Shown here one piece after another: positions 23,408-61,240 of a DNA stretch of 64,000 nt. Under the pieces are notes generated by a model, which had not been told where the DNA came from, did no database searches, and worked only from the letters and a program-made list of their open reading frames with translations. The stretch lies in assembly GCA_033439265.1 (NCBI GenBank), contig JAVTVX010000005.1, forward strand, positions 3,792,001-3,856,000, given 5' to 3'. The translations under genes and the position numbers were made by a program. The stretch's first letter is position 1; every line of letters starts with the position of its first letter. Source of the stretch: Dillenia suffruticosa (Eukaryota; Streptophyta; Magnoliopsida; Dilleniales; Dilleniaceae).

Positions 23408-23408
23408 A
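23391..23408 (+). promoter_or_regulatory. Five-codon uORF abutting the UBP14 start
   Basis: An ATG at 23391 opens a frame of five codons that ends at TAA 23406-23408. The last A of the stop is the first base of the UBP14 ATG (TAATG overlap). If included in the transcript, it could make ribosomes terminate and reinitiate at the main start. This is an inference from sequence; the transcription start is not known. Confidence 0.4.
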
Positions 23409-23521
23409 TGGTGGACGCCATTGGTCTTCTACGATCGAATCTCTCTCGTGTTCGCATCCCAGAACCAACCAATCGCATTTACAAGCAAGAATGTTGTGTT
23501 TCTTTCGACACTCCGGTACTC

Positions 23522-23556
<35 letters not shown>

Positions 23557-26500
23557 TTGCCAGTATCGAGTGTGTGTTGTGGTTTTTACAGAGATCCGAA
23601 GGAGGGTTGTTCGTGGACATGAATTCTTTTCTTGCGTTTGGGAAGGATCATGTGGGTTGGAATTATGAGAAAACTGGGAATCCAGTTTATCTTCACATTA
23701 AGCAGAATAGGAAGGTTGTTTCTGAAGACGGGCCTTTCAAGAAACCTACTCTTTTGGCTATTGGTAACCTTCTTTTCCCTCTCTTTTAGTAGTCAAGAAT
23801 GCTGTTTTAATGGTGATATTGGACTTGAGTAATTTTAGGTTTAGGTTCTGAATCAGCAAGTTATATTGTTGATTATTGTTTTAAGTTGTAGATTCTAATC
23901 TGTGTGGTTGTATTTGTGGTGGGATGATTAATGATTTTGTTTGATTGAGGGTAGTGCCGATGGAGCAATTGATAGCTCTCTGTGCACCATTTTTTTTTCC
24001 AAAATTAAAATAGGAATACTGATTAAGGAAAAGAGATAGGAATAAAGATTGAAGAGAAAGAGATGGGTTTAAGCCTGTTCTGGGTTCTCTAATAATTGGA
24101 TTGTGCCGGGTTACTTAATCATAACTGTTCTATGTTAGAAAAATGGGATTAGGGTTTGGTTGGAAGAGTCAAGTGAATTGAGATGAGATGAGAGAGTTGA
24201 AATCAGAAATAGAGGAGGGAGGGGCGGAGTTGCATGTTGCATAAATTTCAACGGCTTTATGTAATGCTAATCTTTTTAAAGCTGTTATTCAGAGACTTTT
24301 ATTTATTTATTTATGTTTTTGTATCTTTAGGTTGTAAACATAAAAACCAAAATCAGGCACTACGAAGAGAGAGACGAAGCTATTTGTATTGTAATTAAGA
24401 TTGTAAAAGCCAACGATAGGACAGTGGTCTAGCTGCTGTATCAACTCAACCTCTCCTCAGCTTACCACTGCTTGGCCTCAAGTCTGAACCTTCACTTTGG
24501 AAGTTCATTTTATATGATTTTAATAGAAGCAATACTGCCATCTTCAAGCCTAGAGAGCAAGAAACATACGCCGTACACTTGGGACTTTCTCAGGCTTTTC
24601 AGTAAATTTTTGGTGCATCCACCCTCAAAGCCATTATCTACAGCTTTGTTGAAAAAGCCATAGCTAAAGAAAAATTGTCCTTATTCTTTCTCTTTTAGAG
24701 CGTATCATCCATTGCTTCTTTACTTTTGTACTCGGGAGCTTTTTACTAACAGCAGCAAGGCCAGAGCCACTCTTTTCCAGGGTGTGATATTAGAGAGATT
24801 TCCTAGTGCTGTTCCTACAGTTTTTCTTACTAATGATTGTGAACCACTTGCTACTGCTGCCATGCCAATAATTGTTTACTTTAATGATCAAAAGTTATTA
24901 AAACTAGAAAGACAAAATTTTGCTGCTAGGAGTAGAGTTCAGGTGTCTAGAATTGCATTTTTGTAGTGTTTCTCTAAGCCCGAATTTCCTAAAGATTCTA
25001 ATCTCCGAAGTTCCATTTTTGTATTTCTTATTGGGTAAGACATTGTCCAAATATGACAAAATTAGGAAGATGGAAAATTTTCTAGGTCTACTTTGTGATA
25101 TTGTTGGTCAATCTTTTCTCATATGCCCCTCAACCATCCTTGTGCTGAATGGTTGGCTATTTTGGTAAATCCACTGTATGTCATTGACCAAAAAGTTAGC
25201 AAGCCATTTAGAGAACAGGAATTTCTATCAAGTTTTTGTTTGCTGCTCTATTCATTCCTTTTTCCCCCTCTGGTAATGACACTGAGATTCCCACAGCACA
25301 AATGAACTTTGAGAGCAGAGGACAAAAGCATATGATTTTCATTGGTTACATATTGAATTTAAATTAGGATTTTCTACAACTATTACTAAGCCAGTTGAGT
25401 AGCTGTGTGAGCCTCTGTAAAACTTTCTGCCCCTGAAATATGCATGAATTTTAGTTTTAGTTTTAGCCTTTTTTTTTTGTGAAGGACTTTAAAAGTGGTA
25501 AAATGGTATATATGACATTAGAAACTGTCCTCTTTCATTTGTCTCCCATAATCTTGCTTTTGGAATTGTTTCTCTCTGTCTCTCTGTTTCATGCACATGA
25601 TTGCACACATACACGTATCTGCTTATGGCATGACACTGGTATCTGCAAGCAGTTGTTGGCACTCAAGTCCATCATAATCTGCCTTTCTTTTTATTGTCTG
25701 CTCTGCAGTTAAGAAATAAGCTTCTGCTGTGGTTTGACTCGTAGGTGTTGAGGGGGGTTTTGACAATCATGAGCCTGAGTATGAAGAAATTTACAGCATA
25801 GTCATCTTGCCTGATTTTGCAGCTCTTGGATTTCCATCGGTGGAGTTGCCTGAGAAGGCATGCCATCTTCCTCATTGTTTTTGTTATTCATTTACAAGTC
25901 TTAGAAATTGAAACTCCTTGGTTGCATCATTTGTATAACATGTAAAACTGTAGGTAAGGTTGGCAGTAGATGATATCTTGATGTCTGAAGGTGCTGAACA
26001 TAAAGAGCAGCTTGCGTCATGGACAGCTGATAAGAAGCAAATGAATACATATGCAACAAATTTGCGGCAGATTGACAATGGCGTTGTTGTTCCTCCTTCT
26101 GGTTGGAGATGTGCCAAGTGTAACAAAACTGAGAACTTGTGGCTGAACTTAACTGATGGAATGATCCTTTGTGGAAGGAGTAATTGGGATGGAACTGGCG
26201 GCAACAACCATGCTGTTGAACACTATCAGGAAACCGGTTACCCTCTCTCCGTAAAACTAGGGACAATTACTGCTGATCTTGAAGGGGCAGGTATAGAATT
26301 TTTTTTTTCTTTCATTTCAGGAGTTCTTTCATCCCTTTTTTTTGCCCTTGCCTTGACTTGCAGCAAATGGGGAATTTGGTTCTGCTTTTGTGTGTGTGTG
26401 CACGTGGGAGATCAGAATTCGTATGTGCTTGGTGGTGAATGATACAAAAATTGTCATCACTTGGTTGCCTTGAAACTGGGGAATTGATTGATAATGAACA

Positions 26501-28342
26501 TGGGGTTGATTTAATTCATGTTCTTTTGGTAGCTAGCTAGGACTTGGCGAGGATTTACTGTCTCTTGCTGATTGTTGCTTATTTATAGTTCCCATCAAGT
26601 TTGCCTACGTAATCAAAGAGGAAGGCAACTTGCAATCACATTCAACAAGCTGTGATGGGAATAATGGTGCTTAACTGTTTCATGGCATGGACAAATTAGG
26701 TTTGGGTTCGGGGGGTTGCACTTTGGCTCGGAGAGAAATAATGGAAGCAACATCCGTAGGCACTTTTTTTTTTGGCACGTACAGCTAATTATATGTTGTA
26801 AATTATACCTTACATTGGAAAAGGGACAACACGTAACACATCTTTTTTCTTGATAAAAGAACATTACTAGAAGGAGAGAATAAAAGCATTACAATATGAA
26901 AAAATGCCCTAAATTTTAGGTCTTGACCAGATGGCCCAGTTAGATAGATCATTGATAGGCTTCAAACTTTCTACGCTCTTTCCTTGCCTTCCCTTAGCCA
27001 ACTCTCGCAATTCTTTAGATCCACCTCTTGATTAATCTTCCAAGCTTGCTATTTGACTCTTGAATTATTATTTTTTTTTTTAGCATAAGAATTGATAAAC
27101 TTCATCCAGTAAACCTTGTGAAAGATCTCTTTTGCTCCATGCTGATTTCACTCAACTATCTCTAGCTCGAACATTTTTCTCCCTAGCCATCTCATTTGGT
27201 TATCATGAGTCTCTCCCTCTTTGTCTACAACTATGTTTTTTAATGTATGGTAGAACTATCCTTTTTAAGTGTATCTTATTCTTTGAAATGATCGAGCTAT
27301 TCTATTGCAAATCATTTTCTTCTCGAAACAAATTTCTGTGCATTTTGATGTCTAATTGCTTCCTTTCTTTGTTTCATAAATGCTTGCAAAATCTTTGAAA
27401 TATCCCCAGTTTGTCAGTCTTGTCAGAACACTTGGAGTTTGCACCACTATCATCTGCTAGAGCTTATGATGTTTTGTTTGATCAGATGGACTCTAGGCAA
27501 TGATTGCCTAAAAGTATTTTAAGTTTGCATGGAACTCAATTTTGCCTCCTTTGACTTGCAACTTCTACACAGTTCACAGAGGTTGGCTAGAACCAGGGAC
27601 CTCAGATCATTGATCTGAATAGTACAGTAAGGTCATGGTTTGTCTCCCCTTGACATCCGCAACAAGCTTTTGACAACAAATTACACCACCTGCCCAACAA
27701 AATGGTAGTAAAAAGAAGTGTGATTACTGCTGTACTTCTTTTGAGCCTCTTTTTCTCTTATAAGACTTAGCTCAAGCTGTACTGTAACTTCTTTTTGAAT
27801 AGGACTCACGGTTTTAAATCCGGCCACCTAGTGAATTTGTGATCCTCCTGTCTTGCATTTTCTCTCTTAAATTGTTAGTAGGTCATGGTCTCAATTTCAC
27901 ATCTTCGTCCCGTCTGGATGGATTATGAACATTAATCCACATTTTTCAATGAACTGTCACTTCCATTTCAACTCTTTTCTGAATCTCCTTTGGCATCATT
28001 ATGGTGCTTTGCTGCTGAGGCTGAATTAGTGATATAAATTGGAATATATGATGTTTAGCTTGGGCATCATGTGGGAAGCACCTAGGATGTGCATGTGGTT
28101 TTAATGAATCACCTACGAAGACCCAGAGACGCACCAGTTGAGAGGAACGTGACCTTAAATGTAGGAGATTTAGTGAAGTGTAGGGATAAACCGTTAAAAA
28201 CTTAAATGTAAGTTATTTGTAAAGATATGAGTGTCAAAATTTTAGTTGAAGTGATGACTTTAGATAGAAATAAGTGATGTAGGAGAATCCGAATTGGTTG
28301 AATTATTATTATTGTTATTTTTTGAGTTTCTATGGATAATTT

Positions 28343-28373
<31 letters not shown>

Positions 28374-31300
28374 TTATTATTATTACTATTATTTTTTAGT
28401 TTTATCTTTTCTATTTTGTTTTCAAATTTTAATTTTATGTTATTCTTTTTCTTTTCCCCTCTTTCCTATTTTGATCTCTCAAACAGCCGACTCCAAAATT
28501 TGGGATTAACATTCAGTTTGTTATTATTGTTGTATCTTCCTTATTTCTGCTTTCAAATTTTATTATTATTATTTATTTTTTCTTTCTCCTCTCTTCTATA
28601 TTGTTCTCTCAAACGGTCAATCCCAAAATTTGGGATTAAGGCTCAGTTTGTTATTTTTGTTGGATAGAAAATGAATATATCTTTTAAGGAAGAGAAAATT
28701 TTCAATTTCCTCAAGAAAGTGTTGTTCCTGTCAACCTTGGTTGGCACATATTACTACCTCCCAAAAATCTTATTGGTTTGATTTATAGTATATATAGGTT
28801 CAAGCTCAGTAATTTCTGATTTTTGTATACTAGAAATTGTTAGGTATGAAGAATGTGCTCTTGAAAGCTCTGGTAGACTCTCAGGCTGGGATAGATTGGG
28901 GGAGTTCCTTCTGTACAAATCCTTTTATTAGATCTGTCCCTGCTCAGAATCTTTTGGTTTGAGTAGTTTTCAGACATATACATTGCTGTAGGTGCACCCT
29001 TAAATCAAGGATGGCCCTCCTATTTAAAGCATTCCACTTGAATAATTTGTAACTTGGGTATGTGGTCAACTTTTTAGTTTGTCTCTTGTCTATGATGTGG
29101 ATGGGCTTAACAAAAGAAATTTAGAGGTCTATGACACCAGACTTGAGTTGCTGTCCTTATTTTGGTTCTGAGTAATTGCAATTTTAAATTGGCGAGCATT
29201 TTATTTGGAAATTGCATCAATATCAACATCTTGAATGTATCTATTTTTCAATATGACCTTGAGTCTTACCTGTCTAAATGTTATTTAGTTGGTATAAACC
29301 CCTTATGATTATAAATAATCCATGGCAGCTCAGATGTTTTCTCTTATGCGGAGGACGAGAGTGTTTTGGATCCACTTTTGGCACAGCATTTGGCATTCTT
29401 TGGCATTGATTTTTCATCATTACAGAAGGTCAGTTGTATCATTTGACTCTTTTCTTGACATTGCATCTCTCTATCTCTGGGATTAAATTACACTCTGATA
29501 CAATTTAATGATAGTTTGATGGAGAGCATGAATCACTTCTAAATTGTTGCTCTGAAAAAGAGTTTTTACCTTGATCTTGATAGTGATAATAGAGAGTTTC
29601 CTTTAAGTAGCTTTATATGTAACTTGACACATGATTTACTTACAAAACTATTATTATTGCTTACAAATATCCTGTCAAAAAGATAATTGCTATTAAATAG
29701 CAACTCTCATCTGATATACATATGAATATGGCTTTTATGATTGTTAACTAAGTGGATATATATTGATATACTGCAACAATTCATTAAGCATCCTGATTAT
29801 GTTTATTCACCACAGCGGTAAGTGCTATAGTCTTTGCTTGATGCTACCTCTGTGTCTCAATATCTCCAGCATGATCTATAATGACAGAAATTGTTTGTGT
29901 TGTGCATTGGAAAGTCAGTTAAATGCTTAGGCTATTGTTTGTATGTACATGACACCATCATGTGAGGCTTGCTTTCTGCTTACATAAAATTTGAAAATCC
30001 TTATGCTATAATGCTTTGATATTTATCGGTGAAGCTTTAGATTTTGCTTGGATTATTTGGGTGTTATTAAGATTGCTGTTTCCTTATTTCCAGACAGAAA
30101 CGACAACTGCAGAAAGAGAACTTGATCAGAACACAAATTTTGATAAATGCTTAGGCTATTGTTTGTATGTACATGATACCATCATGTAAGGCTTGCTTTC
30201 TACTTAGATAAAATTTGAAAATGCTTATGCTATAGTGCTTTGATATTTACCAGTGAAGCTTTAGATTTTACTTGGATTATTTTGGTGTTATTGTAAGATT
30301 GCTCTTTCCTTATTTCCAGACAGAAATGACAACTGCAGAAAGAGAACTTGATCGGAACACAAATTTTGATTGGAACCGGATCCAGGAAAGTGGACAGGAA
30401 GTCGAACCATTGTTTGGACCTGGATATACAGGACTTGTCAATCTTGGAAACAGGTAACTTAGGCCCTTCTATTGGCTGACTAATTGTTGTAATTTTCCTT
30501 GTTTGCTCATTTCATATTGTTGCAGTTGCTACTTGGCATCAGCGATGCAACTCGTGTTTTCTACACATTCTTTCTGTTCAAGGTCAGCGAATACTTTCTA
30601 AAAATTTGATTGAACTGCCCAGTTTCAATATTCAATATGATATGGATGTCCCTTTTCCTTCCCCCCCCCTTACCACTCATGGTTCAGTTTTTTTTTCTGG
30701 TGTGACTATTCAGAATTACAAGAACCAGAGAAAATGGCATTTGAATGTTCTCCTGCCGATCCAACTGTGGACCTAAATATGCAGTTGTGAGTCCTTGGTG
30801 CTTATTGTACTTTATCCATATCATTTTTTATGACCAAGACTGCTAAATGCTGCTAAATTGTTTCAATATCTATTTCCATGTGACGTATATTCTGTGAATA
30901 CATAATCCTTATTATGAACTTTCTTAGCAAAAAGGCGTTGGGGATTATGAGGCAATATGCCTATCCTGATTTGCATCCACACCTTTTAGCAGACAAATTC
31001 TTTTCTTTTATATGAAAAATATTGCATATCATATTATGTCCTGTGTCAACATGGTATATAAGTGATCAAACATGTAATCCTGATTCTCCTGCACTTACAT
31101 CCTGTATATCACCTAATGTCCTAGTTGTATGACATATTCTCTTTCTACTACTCTATGAACATGCTGTAATTTTGGCTGTTTGCTCAACTTTTTTGTCCTT
31201 TTATTCATTTTTTAGAAATATTTTTTCATATAGCTGAAGGAATACCAATTTGACTGTGTAATGTTTTTTTCCTATCCTTTTTTTCTTTTTAATTTGCTCT

Positions 31301-34300
31301 CGTTGCCTTATTCCTTGTTATTATTGAAGGAGCTAGAAACCCACCAGTAAGCTTCCATGTATATTCTTATTTCTTGTCTCTGTATATTTTAGCATCACTT
31401 TCAACGGCTATATGGGACAACTTGGGTTCTTCCATTAATGCACTGTTTTGTTATCAGATTTTTTAACTATTCCTGATATTTACGCTTTGATTTGTCTGTT
31501 GTTGGATTGGTAGGACAAAACTTGCCCATGGTTTGTTGTCTGGAAGATACTCTGTCCCAGCACTTGATGTAAGTGAGCCAAAGAGTTTTTAATATTACTT
31601 CTTTATATCAGTGAGGGTGAAACTTTCAGGTTCTTTTTTTCCTGCAGAATGATGATCTTGCAACTACTGCAAACTCAATTTCAAATGCAGTAAGCTTTCT
31701 GTCCTGACATGTTCTCGCTTGCAGTGCATTCCCCGTGACATGATTTGTGTTCATCTAATTCCTATGAATGCCCTTCCTATTTTCATACTAATAATACTAT
31801 ATATTTGACCATGGCCTTCTTATTATACCCAAAGAATTAGTTTTAGAAAGATAACAATATCAGACATTCAAACAATGTCAAACTTCCATTGTCTTGCATT
31901 TCTCATCAGTTAACAATGTTACTGAATATTGTGTGGGACATTTCCCTGGACAGAAACAAAATTTGAATTCATTGTGAGGGTCCTATTTATAAATGACCCA
32001 TGAATGGCGTAACTTCCAACTTCAACATCGTGATCACGATTTTATTTCTATTTTTGGGTTTATTCATCTCCGGCTCTCTGTTCTAAATAGTTCAACTAAT
32101 CTTTACCTGTCTTTGAGAGGTTGTTCTTTATTTATTATCTTGTAATGTCTTGAATGTTTTGGAATATATCTCCACATTACAGGTAGTTTATTATTATTTT
32201 TGTGTTGAGTGATTTGTAATGTAAGTTTCCATCACTTCTGTAGCTTCTATGGTCATGAGATCTAGTTATTTGACTTCCCTACCACTATTCATCTATTGTG
32301 CTACTGTTCTTTGATCTTCTCTTCCAATCCCCCAACACCCCTCCCAACAAAAAAAAGAACAAATAAGACATAAAACTACACACACACACACACACACACA
32401 CACGTATGTATGCTAACAAAGTACACAACTTGCAGAGGCAAGAAGGTATCTGCCCTCGTATGTTCAAAGCAGTTATCGCAGCCAGCCACCCGGAGTTCTC
32501 TTCTATGAGACAGCAGGTATTCTTTCTTTTCTTTTTTTTTTTCTTCTTCTTTTTTTTAATCTTGTCTATTATAAATAACCAAACTACTTTGTGACGGGGT
32601 AATCTTTATGAGTGGGTGAACTGGAGAAGTTGATTTGTTTTCGATGCATAAAATTAATTTAGCAACTTTACATGCAGTTGTTGGGTGAGGGGATACAATT
32701 GATAGTTAGAGGTTTTAAAAGAGTGTCCATAATGCTAATTACAAGAAATGTAGTTGAAGCGGAAAATATACAAAATAAAATGGGATGAGGAGATTGTGAA
32801 AAGCTGCATAGAAAAAGATAATGGTGCGTGATAGAGGGAATGGGGGTTAGTTTTAGCTTGGGAAGATGAAGAACTACCTTAGAATGGCAATACTTTAAGA
32901 TAATTAGGACTGCATTTCAGGGCACATGTTTTTATTTTATTGAAACTATTTTTTTTTCCTATTCTGGTTTGTCCAAAGAATTGTTATCCAACGCTTTATT
33001 TTATGAAACAAATAGTTAGCGTTTTTTCTTATTTCTTATCTCCTTTTATTTATATGGTAAAATTCTACTTCTCTACCTTGGGGGTAGGCAGCTTTGGTTT
33101 TATTGCGTTGGAGAAATACCTATCTTAGTCATGTCTTTTCTTAGTGAAGCTATGTACAGGCATCCTTGTCTATGTTGCTTCGCCACTTTAACGGTTTATT
33201 CTTGTCATCCCCTCATCATCACCAACAAGCTTACCATCATCACCACTCCACCATCACTCATGTTTTTGCTGTCCTAGTCCCCCCTAGTTCCTATTGTTTC
33301 TTGGACATTATAACGAACTTAGGAGGTTTGGGCTTGCTGCTATTCTTGCTATTGTTGCATGGAAGTAATAAATGCTATTTCTTTAATAATGAGTACTAGT
33401 TTATTTCTTATTGACTCTTTTACAAAATGGCTGATACAAACTCATGTCTAGGATGCCTTAGAGTTCTTCCTACATTTTCTTGACCAAGTTGAACGATGTA
33501 ACACCGGAAACCCTGACTTGGATCCATCAAGAAGTTTCAAGTTTGGTATTGGGGAGTGGCTGCAATGTTCTTCTGGGAAAGTTGCATACAATAAAAGAGT
33601 TGATTACATTCTTTCTCTAAATATTCCGCTGCATCAAGCTACCAATAAAGGTAATTTTTTAAGCAGACCAAAACCACAAATACCATTCAAACTTTTGTCC
33701 CACATTCAAATAACCCCAGAAGTTCCAATTATCCCCGGAACTTTTAAAGAAGGTTTCAATATGCCTTGAAAACTGATCGTGTTTAGCATTCTCTCCATTT
33801 TTTCATCTTCTTCTGTAGGTCACGCTTTGCCTACGAGTACTTTCACATTTCTGTGAAAACTTTGAGTTTTCAGTTTTGTACACCATGGTATGCATTCTAC
33901 ACAAAATTTGATATCCTCCCTCATTTTTGCGATGAATTTGAATCCAGCCTTCAGATTGTCAACAAGGTTCCACTTTGAAGGAATTTTTGCAGTTCTTCTA
34001 TGGCTTGTTGACAGTTCTTCACTTTCTATGCCTCCTTTCTCCATCTTGATTAACTTATTTGGTTATTCATGAGAATTAAATTGTAGTCTTCAGTTCTCCT
34101 AATTGTTCTCCAAATGAGAGGATTCAAGAGAAGTCTATTTCCAACTGAGAATGAGTAAACAAGGTGAAAGAAAAAAATCAGATGGCCCATGGAAAACAAT
34201 AATGAAAATTGAAGGCTTCACTCATTTCCGTTGAAAATATGACTAATTTAATTAGGATTTCACGAAGAAAGGAGGTGTAGAAGGTGAACAGATGTTAAAG

Positions 34301-35213
34301 AGTCACAAACCGTGAAAATTCCTCTCACCCAGAGCTTTATTTGCCAATTTAAAGTACAGATTCGAAGTGCTTGCAAAAAGTTGAGGGGGAAGGTCAATTT
34401 TCATGTAGAATTGATGCCAGGGTGTAGAGAAATTGAAAATCACATTTTGAGAAGCAATTTGGAAAAACTCACCAGAAAATCACATTTCACCAGAGAAATG
34501 AAGGGAATCTTAATGCCATCTGGGACATATATGAACCTATTTCAAAAGTTTCATTTGTAAGGGGAGGGCAATTGACTGCAATTAAAGTTTATGTGGATGT
34601 TTGAATGTAAGCCAAAAGTTCCAGAAGTAGGGTTGTGGTTTTGGCCTTATAAAATTATTAATTTTATGCATTTCCAACTTCTACTAACATTATTGGATTT
34701 GAATTTCAGAACAACTGCAAGCTTTTGAAAAACTAAAGAGAGAAAAAAGTCTAGAAGGAATTCAAGTGTGAGTTCAATATTTGTGGTTTTATCTTTTTTA
34801 GGTTCTTTCTCTGTTCTTTTATGTATTGTTTCATACATGTAGCATTTATTAAATTTTTAACAGGTCCACTGAGGGGTCATTCGCCCAAGAGTGCCTATAG
34901 AAGCCTGCTTGGCAGGCTTTTCAGCCCCTGAGGAGGTGCATGATTTTTACAGCTCTGCCTTGAAGGCAAAAACAACAGCAATCAAGTATGTTTCTTGTTC
35001 TGTCGGAAGGTCTTTTTCAATTTTTTTTGGAGTGCTTAAGTTCTAGACGTTGACTCATTCTAGAGGAAAATGAATGAAATTTGAGACCTCTTTATGGCAT
35101 AGATAAGACATCTAAAAGTAAGTCCACAGTGAAATGTCATTTGTGGCAGAAGGTATGTATTTAACATAAAATTTTTGTAGAAAAAAGAAGAGGACCCTAT
35201 GTGACATGAACTT

Positions 35214-35263
<50 letters not shown>

Positions 35264-37965
35264 CTTTGCAACTTAGGAGAAAGAACAGATATAGATAAGC
35301 AAGGCTGACATAAAATATGTGGCTGAAGGATATCAGAAGATTCGGAATTGGTTTTATCGCTTGTCCTCCTTTAATGTGGGGATAGGTCAATAGTTTCTTT
35401 TTGGAGTTTTGTTGCGCATTCCACTTTATCAAAGTGCATTTTTCGAACTACTTTTGCCATCCTGAGGGGTCTGGGTGTGACGGTCATGGATGGAGTTTTA
35501 TGGTTGCAGGGAACATTAAATTTCTGCAGTTCATATTTGATCGGTTGCTTATAAGCATTTTTAAATTTTATGGTTTGCTTGAAGGTAGGGGAATTTTCCA
35601 GGGCACTATATTTTTAGGGGTCTTGGAAGTGGAACTATTTCTGGGGTCTTTTGAGGTAAATGATTTTGTTAGATACTTTGATGTGGGCTGGTTGTTGAAA
35701 GGAGGAACACGTCCCCTAAGCTATACGGAAGACTATGGCTACCTCAAAACTTGCCTCTTTGGGGTTGGATTTTAGTTTTAGGCAACCCTCTGTAAGACAC
35801 TTTAGGGTTGGATTTTTCACTTACGTTTTATGATGTTTGCTTACATTTTTTTTCCTTGCAGAACTGCTGGCTTGACATCTTTTCCTGATTATCTGGTGCT
35901 GCACATGCGCAAATTTGTAATGGGGGAAGGATGGGTGCCTAAGAAGCTTGGTAGGTTTTCTAAGTGGATGTTTTGTTCTCACACTAGTCATTTCTAGTTT
36001 TGTATGACAAGGTACCACAGTGAATACTTCTGACCTCTCTATCTCTCTCTCTCTCCTTTTTTTTTATAATTTCTTTCTCCTTTGCCAACTCAGCTGTCTA
36101 TATAGATGTTCCCGATATGATAGATATTAGTCACCTGCGTAGCAAAGGAATTCAGCCTGGGGAAGAGCTATTACCTGAGACAGGTAGATACACTCTGGTG
36201 TTTTTATCTCAGTTTTAATTGAAAAATCTGCTAACATGTCCTGATACACACAATCTTGCTAATGTTATGTATTTTGTGTAAGCTCTTTGTGATCTAATAT
36301 TTGCCCGTCGAAGGAATTACGTCATAGATGGACCTCCCACCACATGAATTTGGAAGTCCTCTGAGGATTGCTGCCGGTTTACTTTTTAGTCTGAATGCCT
36401 TTCAACGAGCTTCTCAATATAAGCGTTTGGACATTATTGGGAAATATTCAATAATCTGAGATTAAATCGTACAAGTTGAAATTGTAGTTTTTCTAGACAA
36501 ATGCTGGGTTTCTGGTGCCATTAAAATCTTTCTTGACCAAGTTGAATAATTTTGCTTTGGCTGGATTCCAAGGATTGATTTCGGAATAATCTTTCTTGAC
36601 CAGCTGGAGATGAGATGGAGCCAAAGCAGTTTATAGCTGATGATGGAATTGTTGCCCAACTTGTTTCAATGGGCTTCAGTAAACTTCACTGTGAGAAAGC
36701 TGCTATTAACACCTTGAATGCTGGAGTAGAAGAGGCAATGGATTGGTTGCTCTCTCACATGGATGATCCAGGTACAACCTTTCCCTGTCAGTCGGAAAAG
36801 TCAATTTTAGGCATGTTCTGCTTGGGAGACTTAATTTTGGATTTGTTTTGCTTGAGAGTCATTTTATTTTAGTTTGATTTAGTTTTATTGGAAGGAAAAA
36901 TAATTATTATCTGCTTACTCTCTAGATCTAGATGCTCCTATATCCCATGGGGCACAAACATCATCTATTGACCAATCAAAAGTTGATACTCTAGTATCCT
37001 TTGGCTTTCAAGTAGACATCGCTAGGAAAGCATTAACAGCATCGGTAGTTATTTCTCCATCCCATATGTTTGATAGAATGCTCTATCCTGCAACCTTTTT
37101 TTTTTTTAACTACATATCTATTTGACAGGGTGGTGATGTCGAGAAAGCTACTGACTGGATTTTTAGCTAACCCCAGTGCCTCTGGCACATCAGACATGGA
37201 TGCTTTGGCCAGCACTGCATCAACCATTGATGATGCACTTCCTGATGGAGGAGGAAGTTAGTTTTCTATTCCTTGATTCTTGTTAAGCATACAAATGGTT
37301 CTGTCAATGCATGCTCATCAATTATCCGGCTTGCTTTTGTCCAATTCTATCTATGAGGAGATAAATAAAAAGTGTTAGTCGTAAACTTGGTATAGTTCAG
37401 ACAGTTGTCTGATTCCAGTAAGTTGGCAAATTTAAGGTACTTGATAGAATACATGTTTCCCATCATATAAATGTAAATTGGCCAACTTTTACAAGGGTAG
37501 AAGTTGTTAAAAGACCATATTCTAAATTAGGTATGGTGGTGAGGTGTTCAGAATTCTGATAGAAATTGGGTTTGAGTTCTAAGCTTGGGATGAGGCAGAT
37601 CTTTGCCTGATTGCCCTGAGGATTTATACCATTTTGTTTGGCACATGTGAGGGCATTGGTGGAGATGTTACTCTCCTCAAACCCCCCTGAATATACCAAG
37701 GACGTGTGAATACATGACCCTATGGGCACTTGCTGTGTATTTACCTGTTGTTTTTATGTCTTCAATACATCTGCTTGAATTGCTCTTATTCCTTTATGCA
37801 GGATACAGACTCATTGGGTTTGTCAGCCACATTGGAACTTCTACACAGTGTGGCCACTATGTTGCTCATATCCACAAAGAAGGGCAATGGGTGATTTTCA
37901 ATGACGACAAAGTTGGAGCTTCTGTTGACCCCCCGAAGGACATGGGATATATGTATTTTTTTTAG
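23408..37965 (+). CDS. UBP14: UBP14-type ubiquitin carboxyl-terminal hydrolase, 20 exons, two frameshifts
   Basis: Plant counterpart of USP5/isopeptidase T, which disassembles free polyubiquitin chains. Exons: 23408-23515, 23592-23763, 25745-25857, 25954-26290, 29334-29428, 30320-30453, 30526-30582, 30688 (or 30714)-30786, 31514-31568, 31648-31689, 32436-32516, 33452-33650, 34710-34767, 34864-34985, 35862-35950, 36094-36183, 36604-36771, 36926-37044, 37129-37256, 37802-37965; about 810 codons. Features: zinc-finger UBP domain (about residues 180-232, [16 protein letters not shown]), catalytic Cys box NLGNSCY (about 317-323), two UBA domains (exons 17 and 18-19) and the His box CGHYVAH near the end. 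Exon 14 lacks one base relative to the conserved frame, giving TAG at 34898-34900 after about 528 codons. Exon 19 has one extra base near 37168, giving TAA at 37168-37170. All other phases agree if exon 8 starts at 30688. The locus is either a recent pseudogene or contains two sequence errors. Confidence 0.9.
23519..23553. repeat. (CT)n microsatellite in UBP14 intron 1
   Basis: CT run just inside the 76-bp first intron. It may double as part of the polypyrimidine tract for the acceptor at 23591. Confidence 0.9.
23764..25744 (+). other. UBP14 intron 2
   Basis: A 2-kb intron between phase-1 exons. It contains open frames at 24472-24663 and 24712-24966, but they match no protein I recognise and lack start context. 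Nothing else of note was seen. Confidence 0.7.
25858..25953 (+). other. GC-AG intron (UBP14 intron 3)
   Basis: The exon reads CCT GAG AAG and is followed directly by GCATGC; the acceptor is CTGTAG|GTAAGG. Reading phase and the PEK-VRLAVD junction expected for UBP14 both require the break here. No GT lies at or next to the donor position. GC-AG introns are a known minor class (about 1% in plants), typically with an AAG before the GC, as here. Confidence 0.85.
28080..28660 (+). mobile_element. Degraded RTE-type LINE 3' ends in UBP14 intron 4
   Basis: Plus-strand translation of 28110-28290 recalls, with stops and frameshifts, the end of plant RTE-clade LINE ORFs: a basic segment, a 'kdms' segment, EVMTLDRNK and RRIRI. 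The typical terminal motif ADxKxWD* is visible as ADSKIWD-stop at 28486-28509, followed by TTG/TTA-rich tail sequence. A second diverged tail (CAATCCCAAAATTTGGGATTAAGG) lies at 28619-28642, about 135 bp downstream, so either two insertions or a tandem duplication occurred. The element is far too decayed to be active. Confidence 0.45.
28345..28385. repeat. (TTTA)n/(TTA)n microsatellite
   Basis: TTTA units passing into TTA units inside UBP14 intron 4. It lies within the LINE-like region and could derive from its tail. Confidence 0.85.
29921..30370 (+). repeat. 224/226-bp tandem duplication spanning part of UBP14 exon 6
   Basis: Bases 29921-30144 and 30145-30370 are tandem copies, about 92-95% identical by eye. 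Each contains intron sequence, a polypyrimidine tract, an acceptor TTTCCAG and the first 51 bp of exon 6 (encoding [15 protein letters not shown]). The second copy continues into the rest of exon 6 and is used in the gene model. In the first copy the exon start runs into duplicated intron DNA, so splicing to its acceptor (about 30095) would soon reach a stop codon. Confidence 0.9.
32379..32402. repeat. (CA)n microsatellite
   Basis: CA run about 33 bp before the exon 11 acceptor of UBP14. Confidence 0.9.
33666..34646. mobile_element. TIR-flanked non-autonomous element in UBP14 intron 12
   Basis: The left end (33666: GACCAAAACCACAA...AACTTTTG..CACATTCAAA) is matched in inverted orientation by the right end (ending 34646), whose complement reads GGCCAAAACCACAACC...AACTTTTGGCTTACATTCAAA. 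The inverted repeats are about 50-60 bp with small gaps. The 980-bp interior has no transposase-like frame. Long TIRs suggest a MULE- or MITE-type element. A clear target-site duplication was not found. Confidence 0.55.
35216..35261. repeat. (CT)n microsatellite in UBP14 intron 14
   Basis: More than twenty CT units. On the minus strand it generates a false Arg-Glu open frame. Confidence 0.95.
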
Positions 37966-40235: not shown

Positions 40236-41462
40236 ATGGCTGCCTCCACTCTCTCTCCTGCGACCAACCCTTCTCAGGTAAGCAGGGTCTCCAAACATTT
40301 TCGTGATCAAATTTTGTTCACGTTTGAAGCTCATTGCGAATTTGTGGCAGCTATGCTCAAGCAAGAATGGGATGTTTGGCACATCACAAGCATCAATTTT
40401 GAAGCCAACGAGGATTCAAGTGTTGGGAAAGGAAAAGAGCATGAGAATCACATGTGAAGCAGGTAGTATCCCAGTTGATAGAGTGCCAGACATGGGCAAG
40501 AGGCAGCTCATGAACTTGCTGCTTTTGGGTGCTGTTTCTCTCCCTACTGCTGGCATGTTGGTGCCTTATGCCGCCTTCTTTGTTCCACCTGGGTGAGTCT
40601 ATCCATATCTCAATTCAACTTTCCCTTAACAAAGCTTTACTCAATGAAATTCGGTTTCCTACTTGCTACTGTTAAAATGATAGTTACTGAAAAGGTCCCT
40701 TTGAAAATCGCATAAAGTTTAGCATGATTATGAACAAAGTACACTTGGGACAGATTTATAAGTTACTTCCGTTTTTTAAGGTTCATCATAATGTAGCCAA
40801 GTCGTATGAATATTTTGAGGAAATGAATATGGAAACTGCGGTATTTGAATAGGTCGGGAGGTGCTGGAGGTGGCACCATTGCAAAGGATGCCATTGGAAA
40901 TGATGTCGTTGCTTCTGAATGGCTCAAAAATCACGGACCAGGTGACAGAACCCTCACTCAAGGGCTGAAGGTATGTGAGTCAATTCTAAGAAAATTGCAC
41001 TCGGTATTTAGCTTGTGGATTTTGTTGTGCTAGTCTGAAAGACGAAAGTTCTGATAGTCTCTAACATTGTAATGTGCAGGGAGATCCTACCTACCTAGTT
41101 GTGGAGAGTGACAGAACACTTGCAACATATGGTATCAACGCAGTCTGCACACATCTTGGATGTGTAGTGCCATGGAATGCTGCTGAGAACAAATTCATTT
41201 GCCCCTGCCATGGTTCTCAGTACAACAACCAAGGTCGCGTTGTCAGAGGACCTGCTCCTCTTGTAATCTGTCTCTCCCTCTCTCACTTTGACATTTACAT
41301 TTTATGTCTGGTACTACATTGCTCTGGTAACTTACAAAGGTTGCCGTTGATTTTGTGCAGTCTTTGGCTCTGGCACATGCTGATATTGATGATGGAAAGG
41401 TTCTTTTCGTTCCATGGGTTGAGACTGATTTCAGGACAGGTGAAGCTCCATGGTGGGCTTGA
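40236..41462 (+). CDS. petC: Cytochrome b6f complex Rieske iron-sulfur protein, chloroplast, 5 exons
   Basis: The Rieske subunit passes electrons from plastoquinol to cytochrome f in the thylakoid cytochrome b6f complex. Exons: 40236-40277, 40351-40592, 40853-40970, 41080-41262, 41361-41462; all junctions GT-AG, 687 nt, 228 aa, close to the usual length. Residues 1 to about 50 form a Ser/Lys-rich transit peptide. [20 protein letters not shown] (from about residue 67) is the single membrane anchor, followed by the Gly-rich hinge at the exon 2/3 junction (PPGSGGAGGG). The cluster-binding motifs are CTHLGC (residues 157-162) and CPCHGSQY (175-182): C157, H159, C175 and H178 bind the 2Fe-2S cluster, and C162/C177 form the usual disulfide. 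It ends in GEAPWWA, typical of plant PetC. The ATG at 40236 sits in CCATGGCT, a good plant start context. No lesion seen; convergent with the kinase gene to the right. Confidence 0.97.
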
Positions 41463-60502: not shown

Positions 60503-61240
60503 TAAGAAAATAACTATAGCTGATGGGTCCATCACCACTATAGCTGGTCAATGGGACATTTATATAGCTGGTCAATGGGACATTTATATACGATTCTCTT
60601 ATGCTTAAAATATCCTACATGTTCCGAAACTCTTCGCAAATCTTGTTTCCATTCAAAATCTTACCCACATTTCCATATTGTGTAATCTTTTGTCCTTCAT
60701 AGTGTATATTTCAGGAGTAGCGCATGAGGAGGATGATTGGACATATTAGTGAAGAGATGACCATTACTACCTGGAAGATCAAAGTGGAAGAACTATAATT
60801 AAGAATTCTCTATTTGCATCACTTCTTTCTGAGTTTGTCATGTTAAAAAAAATAAAATATGGCTTTATCATTGTCGTTTTAGGTCATCCATCATTTAACG
60901 TCCTTAAGTTGATATTTCCATCATTATTTAAAGAGTCTACTTTTGAGTCATTTCATTGTGATGATTGTGAACTTGCCAAACACAAATGTGCTTCATTTCT
61001 AATAAGCAATACAAAAACTATTCTTTTTCTCTCATTCATAGTGATATTTGAGGACCCTCCAAAGTTCCGAATATTTCTGGTGCAAAGTGATTTGTTTCGT
61101 TTATTGATGATTGTATACAAATAACGTGGATCTATCTTTTGAAAAATAAATCTGATGTCGGCAACGTTTTTCCCAATTTTTACAACATGATCAAAATACA
61201 GTTTGATGTGAGAATTAAGTAGTTTCGTTCCAATAATGGT

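Follow-up and report, generated by a model that had tools for sequence, protein, structure and literature searches.

We propose that the window analyzed here, the whole 64,000-nt stretch at C5:3,792,001-3,856,000 in a 37-contig assembly totaling 596,357,000 bases, very probably holds an unprocessed pseudogene of UBP14 that arose by segmental or whole-genome duplication and whose intact copy lies on contig C2. UBP14 is the plant deubiquitinase of the USP5/isopeptidase-T type, which dismantles ubiquitin chains. We favor this reading because the copy on contig C5 carries multiple lesions and an excess of replacements, an intact copy exists on contig C2, the neighboring genes are unbroken, and the two regions are colinear with complementary gene loss. 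The loci concerned are the following.

Window 23408..37965, forward strand: putative UBP14 pseudogene with 20 recognizable exons, from the exon and phase table, the USP5 match and Pfam domains
C2:2,097,066-2,112,476, reverse strand: second UBP14 locus, from a protein search of the plant's own genome and then the fetched region
Window 614-41745 and C2:2095805-2122400: colinear duplicated regions
Window 40236-41462: PetC, the Rieske subunit of cytochrome b6f, five exons, intact

The identity of the gene, already given as UBP14 in a preliminary description of the window, is upheld by its match to USP5, its Pfam domains and its UBP14 homolog on C2. The 20 exons were placed by reading and their phases then checked, which gave a coding length of 2,401 nt up to a TAG at 37963. 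With the pieces read in family-matching frames and an X set at each break, 801 of 808 query positions aligned with human USP5/isopeptidase T (3ihp; E 6e-245), an active enzyme whose architecture the window copy has in common, and Pfam recognized zf-UBP_var, zf-UBP, UCH and two UBA stretches. The same pieces match the UBA domains of Arabidopsis UBP14 (DA3/PER1/TNI/TTN6), 1vek and 1wiv, with identity at 54 of 71 and 48 of 59 residues. A functional enzyme of this type unites zf-UBP_var, zf-UBP, a UCH domain with two UBA inserts, and the Cys and His boxes in a single open frame; in the window copy all of these parts are recognizable by similarity, yet they are spread over different frames, and unlike USP5 it has lost its open frame: carried as a single frame, it is interrupted in three places, at exons 8 and 14 and within exon 19. 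A processed pseudogene or retrocopy would have no introns, whereas 20 exons with splice sites are found here.

When a 339-residue query covering exons 1-7 was searched against the assembly, 12 matches were found at E <= 0.001, six at the window and six on the minus strand of C2 at 2.105-2.112 Mb, and among the matches listed for this query and threshold none fell outside these two contigs. The C2 coding sequence of 2,424 nt in 20 exons encodes 807 residues without an internal stop and has every UBP14 domain, so that the search of the genome for a second locus, raised in the preliminary description, confirmed its suggestion that another copy exists and supplied the intact relative expected of an unprocessed duplicated pseudogene. 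All 11 first-look candidates in the second-copy search were scored. A UCH-family match on contig C27, whose translation we take from its appearance to be UBP27-like, was rejected as a second UBP14, tblastn with the 339-residue query reaching no better than E 0.04. A UCH family scan of the assembly did not pick up the C2 locus, so absence from that scan means little. Relatives in bacterial genome contigs came to three bacterial loci, which were of no use, and viral contigs contained none.

Relative to the C2 copy, the coding frame in the window is broken by independent lesions in exons 8, 14, 19 and 20, and the gene also contains an internal tandem duplication.

29921..30370, forward strand: tandem duplication, units of 224 and 226 nt, spanning the 3' end of intron 5 and 51 nt from the start of exon 6
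30714..30786, forward strand: exon 8, 73 nt long where C2 has 78 nt (losses of 1 nt and 4 nt); the carried frame stops at 30742
34864..34985, forward strand: exon 14, 122 nt long where the intact C2 copy has 123 nt (loss of 1 nt); stop at 34898 in the carried frame
37129..37256, forward strand: exon 19, 128 nt long where C2 has 127 nt (gain of 1 nt); stop TAA at 37168
37963..37965, forward strand: nonsense TAG in exon 20 where C2 has GAG (Glu), five codons short of the normal stop codon

The preliminary description had attributed the truncation to a single lesion in exon 14, which is real but neither the sole nor the first one, given the lesions in exon 8 upstream and in exons 19 and 20. Its account of exon 14 itself stood up well: both splice sites are good (acceptor TTTTTAACAG, donor GTATGT), the frame entering from exon 13 runs for 12 residues to a TAG at 34898, and a different frame encodes a conserved stretch of 20 residues. 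That the exon is one base short, as had been claimed, is supported because the homoeologous intact exon (C2:2100743-2100621) measures 123 nt, a length that rules out two extra G as the lesion. The aligned gap does border the G run at 34873-34876, where the lesion had been placed, but C2 carries substitutions there too, so the loss is not a mere shortening of that run.

Read from the conserved acceptor, exon 8 meets a TGA at 30742 and the product ends after about 348 residues, in which case the product of about 528 residues described earlier is wrong; by arithmetic on the exon table, 528 residues are obtained only if exon 8 starts at 30688, behind a CAG. Normal splicing from this upstream site was rejected, since C2 has GAG in place of the CAG and reads RYYKNQSLKMAF in exon 8 from the downstream acceptor. 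The extra aligned base of exon 19 lies outside any homopolymer, and the resulting TAA at 37168 falls at the end of UBA2, upstream of the exon with the catalytic His. The tandem duplication, which is single-copy in C2 and shows 13 mismatches in 224 aligned columns, doubles the acceptor of exon 6; the two acceptors are equal on a simple matrix (7.6), and an exon starting at the upstream one, at 30094, reads to a TAA at 30187. As read, the window copy cannot make a catalytic domain with its His box.

In-frame detours around the three breaks can be drawn: a start at 30688 for exon 8; a start at 34953 (score 11.2, comparable to genuine junctions here) or skipping for exon 14, at a cost of about 30 and 41 catalytic-domain residues; and a donor after 37067 (10.3) for exon 19, which garbles UBA2. 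The matrix behind these scores, a simple plant splice consensus, is crude, because several good junctions of UBP14 and of its intact neighbors rank below out-of-frame ones. It is very unlikely that a single transcript would bypass all three breaks and yield an active enzyme. Intron 3 (25858-25953) has a GC donor (AAG/GCATGC) that we considered as a further lesion and rejected, as C2 has the same donor and the intron is therefore an old GC-AG intron.

The window and C2 copies align through introns and exons alike, in 13 blocks of 76-88% identity each, including one short block in inverted orientation, so that the introns of the parent copy are retained; exons with their flanks reach 89-94% identity. 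Across 802 compared codons the two copies differ at 67 residues and by 70 non-synonymous differences (Ks 0.196, Ka 0.038, Ka/Ks 0.2). We polarized the 65 differences in USP5-aligned columns, for one gene pair without a control pair for this duplication and with human USP5 as a distant outgroup, and found that USP5 has the C2 residue in 23 of them, the window residue in 7 and a residue seen in neither copy in the other 35. The window copy thus carries the larger share of replacements (one-sided sign test on 23 v 7, p 0.0026), which, within the limits of a distant outgroup and a single gene pair, points to relaxed selection. The UBA regions of Arabidopsis, used as an outgroup instead, are too short to separate the copies (UBA1 1 v 0, UBA2 3 v 3). 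Because the window copy is still highly conserved (67 residue differences in 802 codons; Ka/Ks 0.2), its decay is probably young. Arithmetic on these counts, as distinct from a dated tree, indicates that constraint was probably lost late after duplication, in a fairly recent loss, and the 70 non-synonymous differences split 23:7 suggest, very roughly, that the window copy has been neutral for about the final quarter of the period since the two copies arose.

Frame breaks affect three exons in the 2,401 nt of UBP14 and none in four neighbors totaling 5,073 nt, whose exon models were placed by the same reading: the TRM5-like, ADCK-like and R2R3 MYB genes keep an open, in-phase frame for 4,386 nt (the ADCK-like model being partial, with three exons recognized and no stop reached), and PetC is open over 687 nt. 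By length alone, the probability that all three breaks fall within UBP14 is p 0.033. This distribution bears on the idea, raised in the preliminary description, that the plant's actual C5 gene is unbroken and the lesions are assembly or sequencing errors. Two breaks are indeed single-base indels, one of them beside a G4 run, as is typical of long-read error, but the lesions are too varied in kind to fit it easily (losses of 1 nt and 4 nt, a gain of 1 nt outside a homopolymer, a stop substitution, and a duplication with 13 mismatches), the neighboring coding sequence is unbroken, and the excess of replacements points to relaxation at the protein level. We therefore give error only a slight chance; nor is it needed, since a second copy exists. 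The assembly gives one sequence per locus, and the broken copy might instead be one C5 haplotype of a heterozygous plant whose intact allele is absent from the assembly, the intact C2 gene sheltering a null allele. About six lesions on one haplotype, together with relaxed protein evolution, argue for a long loss as opposed to a young null allele, and leave this proposal with next to no probability.

A further alternative is that the C5 locus is expressed as a shortened, non-catalytic protein with two zinc fingers, perhaps with more added through alternative splicing, in a regulatory role. Exons 1 to 7 form an open stretch of about 338 residues that takes in zf-UBP_var and zf-UBP, and formal splice detours exist; against this, the excess of replacements extends to zf-UBP sites common to C2 and USP5, which are altered at residues 188, 207 and 230, and the doubled exon-6 acceptor places even the shorter transcript in doubt. 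Premature stops in multi-exon transcripts usually set off RNA decay as well. We regard such a protein as highly improbable, and likewise see only a slim prospect that the locus still makes a fragment limited to the zinc fingers, one that would bind the free ends of ubiquitin and modulate the C2 enzyme. Judged from its sequence, the window copy is most likely without function.

From 0.6 to 41.7 kb the window is colinear with C2 in 17 blocks of 73-88% identity each, interrupted by unmatched stretches such as 8.2-23.0 kb. Within 116 kb of C2 (tblastn E <= 1e-3), the matches to PetC and TRM5 were confined to residues 196-228 and 495-595 respectively, toward the end of each protein, and ADCK and MYB gave no match. 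Loss is therefore complementary within the compared regions: C2 keeps UBP14 and has lost most of PetC and TRM5, and C5 keeps those two and has a broken UBP14, which looks like the picture expected of fractionation after duplication. The window copy resembles unprocessed pseudogenes from plant fractionation in its retained introns, colinear homoeologue, several independent lesions and complementary losses, and differs from them in no point of principle; its special feature is that the gene is essential and one intact copy was found.

These observations are consistent with a simple course of events, in which a segmental or whole-genome duplication would have produced two UBP14 genes, the C2 copy would have kept its full reading frame and supplied the essential function, and the C5 copy, freed from selection, would then have gathered at least three frame-breaking exons, a terminal nonsense change and an internal tandem duplication. 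We accordingly expect the C2 copy to be expressed and functional. Passages of PMC3928566 describe Arabidopsis UBP14 as an active enzyme essential to the embryo, with mutants arresting at that stage, whereas the window copy has several broken exons; because the C2 copy is intact, there is no conflict with the embryo arrest of ubp14 mutants. As a complete copy lies on another contig, essential UBP14 is not missing from the plant, and the well-supported duplicate pseudogene of it read here is an ordinary result of gene duplication.

Among titles in the open-licence literature we found no plant UBP14 pseudogene, and no UBP14-like peptides were found in published papers; passages of PMC8281628, PMC12294657, PMC11236618 and PMC8212830 gave no clear answer on UBP14 copy number in other plants. 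The locus offers a clear case of duplicated regions losing genes complementarily, together with a warning that gene models drawn across the window copy would be chimeric, and its significance beyond these two points is limited.

Some features of the window stand apart from the fate of the gene. Intron 1 of UBP14 (23516-23591) is only 76 nt long and nearly half CT repeat, and intron 4 contains a diverged tandem pair of 130 nt with 72% identity at 28394-28653. Retroelement remains with a gag_pre-integrs domain (Pfam E 8e-7) lie at 60753-61121.
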